DNA of 64,000 nt from Seleniivibrio sp. Lineage in GTDB: Bacteria; Chrysiogenota; Deferribacteres; Deferribacterales; Geovibrionaceae. The notes below the pieces were generated by a model. It worked only from the letters and a program-made list of their open reading frames with translations. It was not told the DNA's origin and did no database searches. This document shows positions 19,084 through 35,540 of this stretch, in pieces. Position 1 is the stretch's first letter. Every line of letters begins with the position of its first letter. The DNA lies in NCBI RefSeq assembly GCF_021209385.1, contig NZ_JAJOIL010000035.1, positions 62,001 through 126,000 of the forward strand, given 5' to 3'. A program made the position numbers and the translations under genes.

Positions 19084-20211
19084 TTAAACAGGAAATTCAA
19101 CAATGAATCTGGTATATGTCGCTCCGTCGCTGTCAACGGATATCTGCCCGCTGTGGGCTTTCAGAATCTTATAAACTATTGCCAGTCCAAGCCCCGTTCC
19201 TTTCGCTTTTGTGGTCTGGAACGGAATGAACAGTTTTTTGCGCATAGATTCGCTTATGCCGCTGCCGTTATCTGTAACGGTGAAGCCCGACCTTTCGTCT
19301 TCGCTGAATGATTCTATCACGATCTGTCCGCCTTCGGGAACGGCTTCGATGGCATTGTGGACAATGTTCATCACTATCTGCTTGCAAAGCTCTGTGTCGC
19401 AGCGGACAACATGGTCTTCATTTATCTTATTGATGAATTTTATATTTTTTTCTTTCATCAGGTGCTGCAGATACAGTACTACGTCGTCGACGATATCAGC
19501 AACGAACCTGTTCTGAGGTTCAAGCTTTATCTCTTTGGTGAACAACAGAATATTCGATATTATCGAATTTATTGTGCGAACCCCTTTAACGATAGACCTC
19601 GTGAGCTTAGTACCCGACTCGTCGTTTCTCAGATCGCGCTCAAGGAGTGACGCAAAAAGCTCTATACTGCCCAGCGGGTTGCGTATCTCGTGGGCTATGT
19701 TCGCCGCCATTTCGCCCATAAGAACGAGTTTCTCGTCTCTCTGGCGCTCCGCTTCAAGCTGTTTGATATGGCTCACATCGTCTATAATATAAACGTACCC
19801 TCTAAGTTCCAGATTCTCCAGTCTGCCCACGGATATACGGAAAGTTCTTCCGTCCTCTTCATGGTCGAACACCCCCGGTTCTCTATGGAGATTCAGCATA
19901 GAAGTAAAAGCCTCTTCCCCCAGTTCGGAGATGAAACACTCAGCCACAGGATTTTTCACAAGAACCGTTCCGGAATCGTCTGAGGCAAGAACACAGCTGT
20001 TCGAGTTATTCAGCACAGATTCGAGAAGCCCGCTTAGTTTTGAAAGTTCAGAGTTCTTCTCCTCAACCTCTTCGCGCAGTTTTTTAGCTTCCTCTTCTAT
20101 GATGGAGTATTTCTGTTCAAGCTTTGTTGATGCTTCGCTGAAAGCCGCAAAAGCCTGTGCCAGCATCTCCATTTCGCCTGTTTTGTCTAGTTTTTCAGGG
20201 AGTTCCGCCAC
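19084..20211 (-). CDS. PAS-domain sensor histidine kinase, FlrB/FleS-like
   Basis: The product is 375 residues without transmembrane segments. An N-terminal coiled coil (to about 65) and a PAS-like region (about 65-155) precede a HisKA domain with phospho-acceptor His in NIAHEIRNPLGSIELF and an HATPase domain (DNGSGI, KGTGLGLAIV). Soluble PAS kinases next to FlrC-like activators control flagellar class III genes in several proteobacteria; the same is likely here. The GTG start at 20211 is chosen because GGAGG lies 7 bases upstream. The gene overlaps the TPR gene by 25 bases. Confidence 0.9.
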   Translation of the reverse strand: MAELPEKLDKTGEMEMLAQAFAAFSEASTKLEQKYSIIEEEAKKLREEVEEKNSELSKLSGLLESVLNNSNSCVLASDDSGTVLVKNPVAECFISELGEEAFTSMLNLHREPGVFDHEEDGRTFRISVGRLENLELRGYVYIIDDVSHIKQLEAERQRDEKLVLMGEMAANIAHEIRNPLGSIELFASLLERDLRNDESGTKLTRSIVKGVRTINSIISNILLFTKEIKLEPQNRFVADIVDDVVLYLQHLMKEKNIKFINKINEDHVVRCDTELCKQIVMNIVHNAIEAVPEGGQIVIESFSEDERSGFTVTDNGSGISESMRKKLFIPFQTTKAKGTGLGLAIVYKILKAHSGQISVDSDGATYTRFIVEFPV

Positions 20212-22802
20212 TTAGTATCCTCCAGCTCGGATTTTGCCGCGGATGCGTAGACCGATTTCGGCACGCTCTCCATCAGCTCCATATATGCGTTTCTGCTCTG
20301 ATCGGGCTTGCCGAGCTTCTGATATGCCTTACCGAGATAATACAGCCCTTCGGCGCGTTTGTCATCACGGGCGGCATGAACAAGCTTGAACTGTTCCAGA
20401 ACCTTTACGGCGCTGTCAAAATTATTCCGTTTAAAGAACGAAATGCCCGTATCAAGATATATTTCGTCATAACCTTTAAAGCGCGATTTCGGGTCGGAAT
20501 CCACTTTCATATAAAGGTCGAACAGCATTTTTTCCCGTTTAATATCGTCAAAAACACCCTTGCTGATGCCATAGGTTTCCTGTGCGGCATATGCGGGATC
20601 CTTGGTGTATTTAGAGAGCAGATGCAGAAGGAGATCAGGGTTCTTTTTTTCAAGCTCCTGAACAAGATAGTCCATCATGCCTCTGGTAAATATATTCGGG
20701 TTAACATCAGGAACCGCACGTCCCAGCATCAGAGAGGTAAGGATATAATACGGGTTTTTACCGTTCCTGTTGCGGTCGAGAATCTTTTCCGCTTTTGCGG
20801 ACATTCCGAGCTTATAAAGCGCAAACGCCGTATAGCTGTTCATCCTGTCCCTGAAATCCGCATTGCGGCTTGTAAGGATGGTGTTCTGGTTCTTGTCATA
20901 TGTACCGACAAGCTGTATGTATGCCTGTTTTTTATAAGCGTCGGTTATCACGGCGGCTATTGAAGCCTCAAGCATCTTTCGAACGTCGTCCTTATGCTTG
21001 CCATTAGGGAAAGACACAAGGTACTCACCGGCAACGGCAATGGTTCCGTTATAATTTTTGGCGGCGAAAACCTGTCTGGTATAGTTATATTTCGCGTCTT
21101 CAAGCATTGCCAGCCATTTGGCGGGACTTACAATGTCCGGATTATCCGCCAGATATTTATTAAGACTGTCGATGGTGTCCTTATATTTTCCGGCGAGGAA
21201 CATATCCCTTATGCCGCCGAAGCTGATATCCTGCAATATCTCAAGCGCCTCTTTCTTATAAGGAGTGTCCGGATACTCTTTCAGTATGCCTTCGGTTACT
21301 GTTTTCGCCTGAGCGTAGTTTGATTTTTTATATGCATCCTTCGCCTTTGTAAGCAGGATGCGCTGACGGATATTATATATCTCCTGAAGGTGATCCGACG
21401 TATAGTTGCGCTTTATGAACTCCGCAACCTTTTTGTCAGCCGCATCATATTGACCCTCGCGGAACAGAGAACGGATTATGAGCAATTCCGCCTCCGAGCG
21501 GAGGTCTATGTCCTGCGAAGTGAGCGGACCTTTCAGGAAATCCGACCACTGGTCAGACGTTCTTTTCGTAAGGTGTCTTTCAGCAAACGCAACGGAACAG
21601 AGCATGCCGCCTTTTTTCTTGCCGAATGTTTTGGCACAGTATTGGAGGCGCGCGTCGAGTACCTGCGGATTTGTATTTTTAAGCAGCATCGCCGATCTGT
21701 ATGCCGCCATATCTGCCTGAGAACTTGTGGGAAATTTGGAATATACCCGTTCATAAAGCCCTCTTGCCGTGTCGGGCTGTGACTTCTTCTCGAATATGTC
21801 AGCCATGGTATAAAGCACTTCGGGACCGAGCTTGTCCAGATCGGTTCCGCTGTTTACAACCGTAAGGAAGGACGAATATGCGAGGTCATAATCTTTCATC
21901 CTCGATTGCAGCATGCCTATTTTGGCATTCTGGGGTCCCGCCTCAGACTTGAACTTCGCTGCTATCTGGTTGCGGACGTCTATCGCCTCTTTAAATTTGC
22001 CCATTTCGGTATTTATGTCTGCTATGCGTTCGTATGCCGTTTTTATAACATCCGGCGCCCGAAGGGTTCTGATGACATTATTATATGCAAAGATAGCTTC
22101 GTTATAAAGCTGTGCGGATTCCTTCGCCTCTGCGGATTTTATCATAGCGTCCTTTTTACGGAACGAATCCGGATATTGTTTCAGGAAATCATCGAAAAGC
22201 TGGGATGCAAATACATAGTTGTTATAGTTGTCCTTGCCGGTATAGAGATATATGAGACCCTGACGGAAGTAGGCTTCCTGTTTGTAATATCCGTCAGGCT
22301 GAGATTTCACTATGCTCTCGGCAAGGTTCATCGCTTCCGTATAGTTCTTTGAAGCTATCAGACCGTCCACTCTGGCAAGAGCCGCGTCGAGGTCTGTATT
22401 CTCAACACTTATCATATCTTTGGTTGCGACAGGCTTTTCTATGCCGTATCCCGTTTTTATGGTTTCAGTCTGTTTCTTCTTGGCTACCACAAGCTTGAAA
22501 TCTTTTCCCGACGTGTTCACAGTGTAGTCGTTGCCAGGAAAAAGAGAGATGGTGAGTATCCGACCGTTAACGGCAATGGATCTGATGAAAGGGTCATGGA
22601 TGCGTGAACCGTCCATACCGGAAAGCACCGCCGACGATTCAACGGCGAGCATATCGCTCCCCTTGCTCACAGACAATATCCTGTCCGCTATGCCGGGAAT
22701 GACAAGCTCGCTGAAATGACCTCTGTTGCGCAGGTATATACCCGCAGCCCAGGCATCGGCACACAGCAATGAAATAAGAAATATACCGAACAATTTTCGC
22801 AT
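20187..22802 (-). CDS. Large periplasmic tetratricopeptide-repeat protein
   Basis: The product is 871 residues with an N-terminal signal peptide (MRKLFGIFLISLLCADAWAAG), then a beta-rich stretch of about 110 residues, then TPR-like helix pairs over the rest. Clear repeats include KEAIDVRNQIAAKF, DTARGLYERVYSKFPTSSQA, YAQAKTVTEGILKEYPDTPY and a final YYLGKAYQKLGKPDQSRNAY. No catalytic domain is visible. TPR arrays are protein-interaction scaffolds. The overlap with the flagellar kinase gene suggests co-translation and a possible link to motility or envelope assembly, but the function is unknown. The ribosome site is weak. Confidence 0.8.
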   Translation of the reverse strand: MRKLFGIFLISLLCADAWAAGIYLRNRGHFSELVIPGIADRILSVSKGSDMLAVESSAVLSGMDGSRIHDPFIRSIAVNGRILTISLFPGNDYTVNTSGKDFKLVVAKKKQTETIKTGYGIEKPVATKDMISVENTDLDAALARVDGLIASKNYTEAMNLAESIVKSQPDGYYKQEAYFRQGLIYLYTGKDNYNNYVFASQLFDDFLKQYPDSFRKKDAMIKSAEAKESAQLYNEAIFAYNNVIRTLRAPDVIKTAYERIADINTEMGKFKEAIDVRNQIAAKFKSEAGPQNAKIGMLQSRMKDYDLAYSSFLTVVNSGTDLDKLGPEVLYTMADIFEKKSQPDTARGLYERVYSKFPTSSQADMAAYRSAMLLKNTNPQVLDARLQYCAKTFGKKKGGMLCSVAFAERHLTKRTSDQWSDFLKGPLTSQDIDLRSEAELLIIRSLFREGQYDAADKKVAEFIKRNYTSDHLQEIYNIRQRILLTKAKDAYKKSNYAQAKTVTEGILKEYPDTPYKKEALEILQDISFGGIRDMFLAGKYKDTIDSLNKYLADNPDIVSPAKWLAMLEDAKYNYTRQVFAAKNYNGTIAVAGEYLVSFPNGKHKDDVRKMLEASIAAVITDAYKKQAYIQLVGTYDKNQNTILTSRNADFRDRMNSYTAFALYKLGMSAKAEKILDRNRNGKNPYYILTSLMLGRAVPDVNPNIFTRGMMDYLVQELEKKNPDLLLHLLSKYTKDPAYAAQETYGISKGVFDDIKREKMLFDLYMKVDSDPKSRFKGYDEIYLDTGISFFKRNNFDSAVKVLEQFKLVHAARDDKRAEGLYYLGKAYQKLGKPDQSRNAYMELMESVPKSVYASAAKSELEDTKWRNSLKN

Positions 22803-23122
22803 TTTTTAATATTACATCATAGAGCAAAAGAGGGCAAGAGCAAGAACAGTGCTTAAGTTTTGACCGTTCAACGGAATCGCTCCGGCGAGATGCGGGCAGA
22901 ACAAGGAAGTTATTCCGAGCGGGCTGTGAGCAAAAAGTCTCCGGCGAGATGCGAGTTATGCAAGAAAGACGGAGCGAGACGAGCAAAAGCATACTGATGT
23001 AGTATGCGTTGCGAGCGAACAACGTCTGACGCAGCAGAACGACGCATATCGCCGGAGACTGAGTAAAAAGATTGAAACGGATGAATAATCGTGTTACCCT
23101 AGTACAATATGAGAGGTCGGAT
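22803..23122. other. Divergent intergenic region with palindromic repeat element
   Basis: This is a 320-bp gap between the TPR gene (minus) and cheV (plus), with no credible coding potential. Most of it is occupied by a repeat: a partial copy from about 22880 and a complete symmetric copy at 22936-23060 (listed separately). I could not identify convincing promoters for either gene. Confidence 0.7.
22936..23060. repeat. 125-bp symmetric palindromic element
   Basis: The end arms AGTCTCCGGCGAGATGCG (22936-22953) and CGCATATCGCCGGAGACT (23043-23060) pair at 17 of 18 positions. A second stem, GCATACT/AGTATGC (22989-22995 and 23001-23007), sits exactly at the centre. A partial direct copy of the left half (CTCCGGCGAGATGCG, then a diverged tail ending GAGCAAAA) precedes it from about 22880. 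No ORF is present. Confidence 0.75.
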
Positions 23123-24013
23123 ATGGCATTAGATCACGGTATACTTCTTGAAACAGGTACCAATGAATTTGAGATTGTAGAATTTATAATCCGCACAGAC
23201 ACAAAAGAACATCATTTCTGCATCAACGTCGCTAAGGTTCGGGAGGTCATCAGGTTTCCCCAGATAGTGCGCGTTCCCGATGCCCACCCCTCTGTTGTCG
23301 GCACTGCAAACATCAGACAAAAGCTTATCCCCATCATCGACCTTGCGCAGTGGCTGGGGCTTAAATACGAAAACGACTACACAGACAAAAAGATAATAGT
23401 CACCTTCTTCAACCATGAATACAACGGATTTGTAGTTGACGAGGTTGTACGCATACACAGGATAACATGGGCGGATATCAAAGATTATTCGTCAATGACT
23501 GATTTCAGTCTTGTGGAAACCGTTCTCGGTGTTATAGACATAGGCGGAAACCTTATCCAGCTTCTTGACTTTGAAAAGATCGTGCTGGAGCTTAACCCTG
23601 ACACCGCCCTTAAAGACATTAACATCGACTTTTCAAAATCTGAACAGAGACAGGGAAAGGTTGTCTATCTTGCAGAGGACTCATCGGTCATAAGACGTTT
23701 CCTCTCGACACATCTTGAACAGGCCGGATACACCATATTCGCTTTTGAAAACGGAAAACTTCTGCTTGATCAGGTTATGAAACAAACACCGGATCTGGTG
23801 ATTACCGATCTTGAGATGCCCGTCACAGACGGCGCATTCGTTGTTAAGACCATCAGAAGTCTGGAAGCAACAAAGACAATACCTGTTATCGTATTCTCCT
23901 CTCTGGCTTCCGAGGAGAACGAAAGAAAGGTGCTGGGCGTCGGAGCAAACCTTTTCATAGGAAAACCCGACACAGACATACTTATACAGAAAGTGGACGC
24001 TTTCCTGTTATAA
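23123..24013 (+). CDS. cheV: Chemotaxis coupling protein CheV (CheW domain plus receiver)
   Basis: The product is 296 residues from the ATG at 23123, chosen because it matches the usual CheV opening (GILLETGTNEFEIVEF) and has GAGGTCGG just upstream; an ATG 17 codons earlier is poorly supported. Residues about 15-165 form a CheW-like domain. Residues about 175-296 form a receiver with acidic residues in LAEDSS, phospho-acceptor Asp in LVITDLEMP and Lys in FIGKP. CheV couples chemoreceptors to CheA and adapts by phosphorylation. It is followed 14 bp later by a CpoB-like lipoprotein gene. Confidence 0.94.
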   Translation: MALDHGILLETGTNEFEIVEFIIRTDTKEHHFCINVAKVREVIRFPQIVRVPDAHPSVVGTANIRQKLIPIIDLAQWLGLKYENDYTDKKIIVTFFNHEYNGFVVDEVVRIHRITWADIKDYSSMTDFSLVETVLGVIDIGGNLIQLLDFEKIVLELNPDTALKDINIDFSKSEQRQGKVVYLAEDSSVIRRFLSTHLEQAGYTIFAFENGKLLLDQVMKQTPDLVITDLEMPVTDGAFVVKTIRSLEATKTIPVIVFSSLASEENERKVLGVGANLFIGKPDTDILIQKVDAFLL

Positions 24014-35382: not shown

Positions 35383-35540
35383 TTTGCGCAAAAATGCGAA
35401 GTGTCAAGCCAATTATTGCTTAGAACCTAGCAGTTTAAGGCGGCGGAGGAACAATTGTTCGCAGTGTATATTAAATACATAAGAACAACTTTTTCATACG
35501 GCAACGCAAAAATGCGAAGTGTTATAAGCAATAATGCAAT
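35383..35540. repeat. Dispersed repeat with paired CGCAAAAATGCG units
   Basis: CGCAAAAATGCGAAGTGT occurs twice (35387-35404 and 35505-35522), 118 bp apart. Each copy is followed by a related A/T-rich tail (AGCCAATTATTGC and ATAAGCAATAATGC). A perfect 12-bp palindrome GAACAATTGTTC (35449-35460) lies between. A third, diverged copy (AAATGCGAAGTTTATAAGCA) is at 61934-61953. This fills the gap between pyc and the converging barrel gene. Confidence 0.65.

Follow-up and report, generated by a model that had tools for sequence, protein, structure and literature searches.

The window, by which we mean the whole stretch of Seleniivibrio sp. DNA analysed here (64,000 nucleotides), carries an imperfect palindrome between a TPR-repeat protein gene and cheV. 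The features are given below with the scores of two covariance models, R1, which was built from Seleniivibrio copies alone (126 positions), and R2, which is broader (125 positions) and has no ERIC inside.

20187..22802, minus strand: TPR-repeat protein gene, divergent upstream neighbour outside the element
22880..22931, plus strand: left half of a second element, of another subfamily, ending near its own centre
22936..23060, plus strand: complete ERIC-like hairpin element, 125 bp (R1 120.7 bits, this copy being a member of the R1 training set; R2 106.4 bits, E 2.6e-22 in the window; fold z -7.5)
22936..22947, plus strand: left outer arm AGTCTCCGGCGA, with a sequence particular to this site
22989..23007, plus strand: apical stem-loop GCATACT-GATGT-AGTATGC, the part of the family most similar to the ERIC centre
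23049..23060, plus strand: right outer arm TCGCCGGAGACT, complement of the left arm
23123..24013, plus strand: cheV (CheW domain and receiver domain), downstream neighbour outside the element
35411..35536, plus strand: second, diverged family copy in the window (R1 52.2 bits; R2 70.2 bits, E 6.4e-14)

An earlier note, made from the sequence alone, had described an element symmetric at its ends and centre with a partial tandem copy upstream, and these observations are confirmed. The arms at 22936-22953 and 23043-23060 are complementary at 17 of their 18 nt (94%) with 89 nt between them, and the central stem of GCATACT (22989-22995) and AGTATGC (23001-23007) has its midpoint at 22998, which is the midpoint of 22936-23060 as well. 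The left half is repeated upstream at 22880-22909 with 77% identity over 30 nt and a spacing of 59, and the arm of this half copy (22880..22931), CTCCGGCG, matches the complete copy in its right arm as well. The remark that the design is far from random agrees with RNA folding: the + strand of 22936-23060 reaches -58.4 kcal/mol against a shuffled mean of -32.4 (z -7.5), and 0 of 200 shuffles fold as well. No credible reading frame lies inside the element, as had been claimed, a 127-aa minus-strand TTG frame being mechanical; the most plausible cheV start is the ATG at 23123, 62 nt past the element end, which is the spacing given before. Searches with the Rfam 15 models show no match in 22700-23300 of the window up to E 5, and at 20 other element loci only tRNA and the cobalamin riboswitch reach the gathering score.

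Copies in Seleniivibrio and in distant genomes

To count copies, we searched the element's own genome (G000), a draft of 96.6% completeness. A DNA search yielded 21 matches at E<=10, with 11 at other places having E below 1e-3, and these matches, once extended, share the same 125-bp design. When 150 candidates were scored with each model, R1 found 41 copies (E<=1) and R2 found 42 (E<=0.01), and R2 places two family copies in the 64-kb window. A single copy kept within cheV regulation, which the earlier note had set against its own proposal, is refuted by these 41-42 copies. Among relatives, R1 counts 2 copies in G001, 47 in G002, 49 in G003 and 48 in G004 of the same genus; 4 in G009 and 16 in G011 of the same family, with 0 in five others; and 36 in G028 of the same order, with 1 to 4 in eight more genomes. 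Altogether 16 of the 59 genomes in this search, the own one included, are R1-positive. Some copies abut head to tail in arrays, for example at 83715-83839-83962-84086 on contig C5 of G004. Among the copies listed for G002, G003 and G004, those on one contig are mostly co-oriented (in G004, all + on C5 and all - on C3 from 308,773 on), which is expected if copies follow gene orientation.

The family is also present in distant genomes. Searching a named genome collection with an exact 21-letter pattern matched 15 stretches, five in S. woodruffii, six in UBA6793, two in a Clostridia MAG and one each in R. cellobioparum and a Herpetosiphon MAG; the Herpetosiphon match (L111) was not accepted by R1, and the other 14 were. 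In a set of 384 genomes, 30 are positive with R1 and 44 with R2 at E<=1e-4, the copy numbers in this search being lower bounds because 9 candidates were scored per genome. Among the 44 R2-positive genomes, 24, from 22 families, are related to Seleniivibrio sp. at domain level only (at most 334 of the 384 genomes are of this kind). Training loci of R2 came from 17 of these 24; the seven outside the training are G082, G135, G137, G138, G141, G224 and G344. R1 had already picked up two of these seven, G135 and G224, and a third, G138, belongs to the same genus as the training genome G278. No match was found by blastn in plasmids and phages, and viral contigs gave 0 matches for the apical pattern and one for the left pattern, which R1 did not accept. 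The best reading is that the range of the family extends far beyond the Enterobacteriaceae and Vibrionaceae reported for ERIC (PMC10969869) and includes Seleniivibrio, Ruminiclostridium and other lineages; the portions of the literature consulted contain no report of ERIC relatives in other phyla.

The folded strand and its position relative to genes

Across the family, the 120-130-nt + strand forms one long hairpin. Its outer arms vary by site; conservation is seen in the internal loops, which are purine-rich (GA..., CAAGG..., ...ACG), and in the apical stem, GAGCRTAC/GTAYGTGA, which includes a G-U wobble. In an alignment of 11 copies (A1), RNAalifold predicts 37 pairs, 31 of which show double compensatory changes. 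A larger alignment (A2) holds 97 matches from 85 loci in 95 distinct rows; 92.6% of its cells are paired vs 65.3% in shuffles, slid versions drop to 25-43%, and double-change cells number 934 vs a shuffled mean of 261, all pair counts from A2, those of G-T and A-C below included, leaning toward the structure of the model because A2 was fitted to it. The unpaired conserved letters of A2 include CAAGG and ACG. It is also evident that wobbles in A2 are asymmetric, with 194 G-T pairs vs 50 A-C mismatches (57 vs 13 in the outer arms alone), as are the mismatches, with 85 G-A vs 19 T-C. A single G-T pair, present in 83 of 94 rows, is almost invariant, and leaving it out gives a G-T:A-C ratio of 111:50. 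Because G-T pairs exceed A-C mismatches, the folded + strand seems to be the conserved form, and the object of conservation is likely this strand, as RNA or as single-stranded DNA. The earlier proposal of a non-autonomous mobile element or a structured RNA is thus supported in both halves, by a dispersed, non-coding, multi-copy repeat and by compensatory changes that keep its structure.

We then examined the neighbouring genes of 89 copies, using simple ORF calling and ignoring ORFs that overlap the element by >60 bp. In 55 of the 85 copies having a right neighbour, the right end lies <=70 bp from the 3' end of an opposing gene, and the mirror case, a + gene whose 3' end lies at the element's left end, is seen in 8 of 85; the copies comprise the best 30 of 41 from G000, 19 of 25 hits from G003 (partial, cut and weakest ones dropped) and one or two from each other genome, orthologous and tandem copies being non-independent. 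The 3'-end rule is followed by 20 of 27 copies in G000, 12 of 19 in G003, 9 of 10 in kin of the order, 8 of 18 in distant genomes and 0 of 3 in R. cellobioparum. Eight loci gathered after the rule was spotted, from eight genomes of which five have another copy in the earlier sets, fit it in 6 of 8 cases vs 0 of 8 for the mirror case. Moreover, a terminator-like hairpin of the opposing strand ends at the right end of the element in 9 of 29 copies in G000 and 10 of 19 in G003, against 0 of 29 and 0 of 19 on the mirror side and 13 of 3998 random positions; outside Seleniivibrio, facing terminators number 2 of 29 vs 1 for the mirror. In most copies the conserved strand is antisense to the neighbouring gene. 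The cheV copy breaks the 3'-end rule, sitting between divergent genes.

Several other settings were seen. In rRNA operon leaders of R. cellobioparum (L112, L215 and L217, on C14, C63 and C44), one or two elements are oriented with transcription, in contrast to the antisense placement elsewhere, and boxA-like motifs lie beside these elements. In some distant genomes (L201, L211 and L213), inspection by eye places the element inside the loop of a host inverted repeat that is longer (17-20 bp), as though it had entered a hairpin that was already there. In several distant genomes tRNA genes are found near elements (L195, L204 and L205), and at L204 the symmetry seems to extend into the start of a tRNA.

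To explore the relationship with ERIC, both models were applied to E. coli, where we marked ERIC with a 44-mer joining the two ERIC primers (matches in 5375 of 5426 E. coli genomes). R1 scores the two ERIC loci at 26.0 and 24.8 bits (E 7.6e-5 and 1.5e-4 in 10 kb) and finds nothing besides them in the same 10 kb up to E 5. In 150 kb of E. coli K-12, R2 gives exactly two matches up to E 10 (E 2.8e-4 and 3.3e-4), which are the same two ERIC copies that blastn finds there; the E-values of both models are rough, and the matches are moderate, best in the apical half and poor in the lower stem. By blastn, ERIC aligns with the 97 elements over short stretches only, with four matches at E<=1 and a best of 0.012. 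Because kinship with ERIC rests on moderate covariance-model matches and the blastn matches are short, the family could instead be a separate one that converged on the apical motif of ERIC alone, a reading that the insignificant blastn similarity and the poorly aligning lower stem would favour. We regard such convergence as unlikely, since the two ERIC copies (2 of 2) are the sole R2 matches in 150 kb, and the length, the strand and the GA-flanked G-U wobble all equal those of ERIC. Next to ybhI, moreover, ERIC and the stop codon of an opposing gene are about 6 nt apart, again as in the family; the ERIC between pgk and fbaA is a mirror case, with its left end about 60 nt behind pgk.

Site history and the search for a mobilizer

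The cheV site, which holds one complete and one half copy in G000, varies among the genomes compared. At the orthologous sites R2 gives a tandem array of three copies in G002 and a single copy in G004; inspection by eye adds a left half in G004 and shows a right half alone in G003. R2 (E<=1) finds no element at the cheV loci of G001, G007, G009 and G011. We located both flanks of 13 G000 sites in 1.58 Mb of G003, and the element is present at nine of them, three of the remainder show apparent remnants by eye and one (L026) is without the element. Recent movement was thus not caught in this comparison of 13 sites, and the orthologous sites of G000 and G003 are too diverged to read a target duplication.

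We compared the arms and cores of ten orthologous element pairs, leaving a further G002 pair out of the counts. Both outer arms agree (identity >=0.75 on each side) in six pairs; in two of these the cores are clearly orthologous (0.92 and 0.85), whereas in the other four the core identities of 0.51-0.65 are hardly above those of random pairs (mean 0.55). In the remaining four of the ten, neither the core nor both arms agree, so that these are perhaps different array members. Like arms with unlike cores at orthologous sites suggest that at some sites the core has been exchanged and the arms kept. Tandem copies with like arms and unlike cores (L022/L037 and the half copy at cheV) agree with core exchange.

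The earlier note had proposed looking for empty sites, and one is provided by a paralogous rRNA leader of R. cellobioparum without the element (C23), these leaders being called rRNA operons by homology and from the 16S start visible in C63. The C23 leader reads ...AAGGTAACAA|ATGGACTTTG..., and C14 reads ...AAGGTATCAA-[118 bp]-ATGGACTTTG..., the identity of the flanks being 79% on the left (114 query bases) and 99% on the right (184). The pair fits a discrete insertion; a clean loss from C23 would be the alternative. This one paralogous site (n=1) shows no plain target duplication and no plain TA duplication, the TCAA/TTGA at its edges being assignable to either host or element. We considered whether the host flank, copied in inverted form, gave rise to the outer arms, and did not adopt this view, because the left arms in G003 share by eye a consensus near TTGGCGTTTA and only about 4 nt are in doubt at the C23 site.

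These observations bear on the possibility that the repeat is an immobile, cis-acting structured RNA or 3'-UTR element under selection. Its strong covariation, its fixed position relative to genes and the occupancy in G003 of most G000 sites located there would fit such an element, as would the reported change of transcript stability by Yersinia ERIC (PMC10969869, PMC2229807). We nevertheless consider it improbable, since 41-42 copies lie beside different genes in G000, yet 2 are found in a congener, and since arrays, different cores at one site and a paralogous rRNA leader without the element all speak against immobility. The conserved strand, moreover, is antisense to the neighbouring gene in most copies.

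Movement could depend on a dedicated enzyme, and two families were searched for. Y1_Tnp (PF01797) has matches in 15 of 29 genomes tested, including RAYT-like proteins of 217-218 aa, and no match in G000, G002, G003 and G004, which carry 41-49 copies each, or in G028 and G271. A repeat of the REP/BIME type moved by a RAYT (Y1 HUH, IS200/IS605-like) transposase would be palindromic, intergenic and multi-copy as the element is, and in G011 a RAYT-like gene lies about 1.5 kb from an element; yet the richest carriers show no Y1_Tnp match, R1, which is weak on distant copies, finds an element in 1 of 20 regions around Y1 matches, and the elements are several times longer than REPs, which measure 20-40 bp and bear a GTAG or CGTC tag (PMC3733652). 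We thus give this mobilizer slightly less credence than the immobile RNA. Just as doubtful is a bacterial SINE, in which a reverse transcriptase would copy the + strand RNA from DNA 3' ends at terminators: the + strand is conserved, and the placement would make the host strand ending in the gene or the terminator T-run the primer, but RVT_1 (PF00078) is found in only 8 of 29 genomes and in none of G000, G002, G003, G011, G028 and G227. That neither enzyme family is common to the carriers would fit a host function.

Interpretation and comparison with known systems

We conclude, with a probability of roughly 0.77, that the feature beside cheV is a copy of an ERIC-type repeat, a MITE-like, non-coding hairpin found dispersed in the genome. 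Such an element would spread as a folded single strand, either RNA or single-stranded DNA, and a putative trans activity, perhaps encoded by the host, may recognise this strand and place it behind the ends of genes or transcripts. After insertion the site would be long-lived while the core could be swapped, possibly by ectopic conversion or by tandem insertion and loss. The copy at cheV would then be an old insertion common to Seleniivibrio genomes, located between two divergent genes a short way before the cheV start, and a role in the control of cheV is not needed to explain it. Much more tentatively, ERIC itself may be the enterobacterial twig of an ancient or horizontally spread superfamily of mobile hairpins, which would move as folded single strands and be delivered antisense behind gene 3' ends by common host machinery with no dedicated transposase, their cores being replaceable and their arms a stable socket.

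The repeat at cheV is real and looks ordinary, yet the ERIC-like family to which it belongs is surprisingly broad and strongly favours certain positions relative to genes. The earlier note foresaw neither this very wide distribution nor the likeness to ERIC, nor did it foresee that copies favour gene 3' ends and that cores are exchanged. With a family that spans many lineages, keeps one folded strand and is so selective about its sites, the movement of ERIC-type elements becomes a comparative question, namely which gene or host function is common to the carriers and which mark lies on the target. In many genomes, copies located at gene 3' ends may also influence where transcripts end.

Among known systems, integron attC sites have the boxes RYYYAAC/GTTRRRY, and an attC identity was set aside because these boxes seem not to fit. 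REP/BIME repeats with RAYT are likewise dispersed intergenic palindromes; the 125-bp element differs from their tagged palindromes of 20-40 bp, and the four element-rich Seleniivibrio genomes are without a Y1_Tnp match. Several elements (in the flanks of L002, L011, L044 and L046, and about 176850 on C14 of G003) have next to them another dispersed palindromic repeat, GATTGCTTCGTCGCT...CCTCGCAAAGACG with its complement; by eye it resembles the CGTC-tagged REPs, which seem to be without a dedicated transposase (PMC3733652). NEMIS/Correia, RUP and YPAL/RU-2, compared by description only, are also non-autonomous hairpins of about 100-200 bp; YPAL inserts at or beside dyad symmetry, and RUP ends are reported to resemble insertion-sequence ends (PMC2229807).

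ERIC, also called IRU or RU-1, is the closest of these: it too is an imperfect palindrome of about 125-127 bp, multi-copy, intergenic and non-coding. In size and shape (about 127 bp, one imperfect hairpin, non-coding) the element agrees with it at 125 bp and z -7.5, and in dispersal (multi-copy, intergenic) with 41-42 copies. The apical motif of ERIC, GAGCNTAC...GTANGTGA with its G-U wobble, is matched by models trained without ERIC. ERIC is reported to be added to gene 3' ends in some cases and to make TA target duplications (PMC2759123), with TA at its termini (PMC2759123, PMC2229807); its movement by transposases is described as being without experimental support (PMC2229807), and Yersinia ERIC is reported to alter transcript stability (PMC10969869, PMC2229807). 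The element differs in having no clear blastn similarity to ERIC, in outer arms that vary by site, and in hosts outside the range reported for ERIC, being found beyond Enterobacteriaceae and Vibrionaceae. Because that host range is an observed range and not a structural definition, we call the family 'ERIC-like' and not 'ERIC'.
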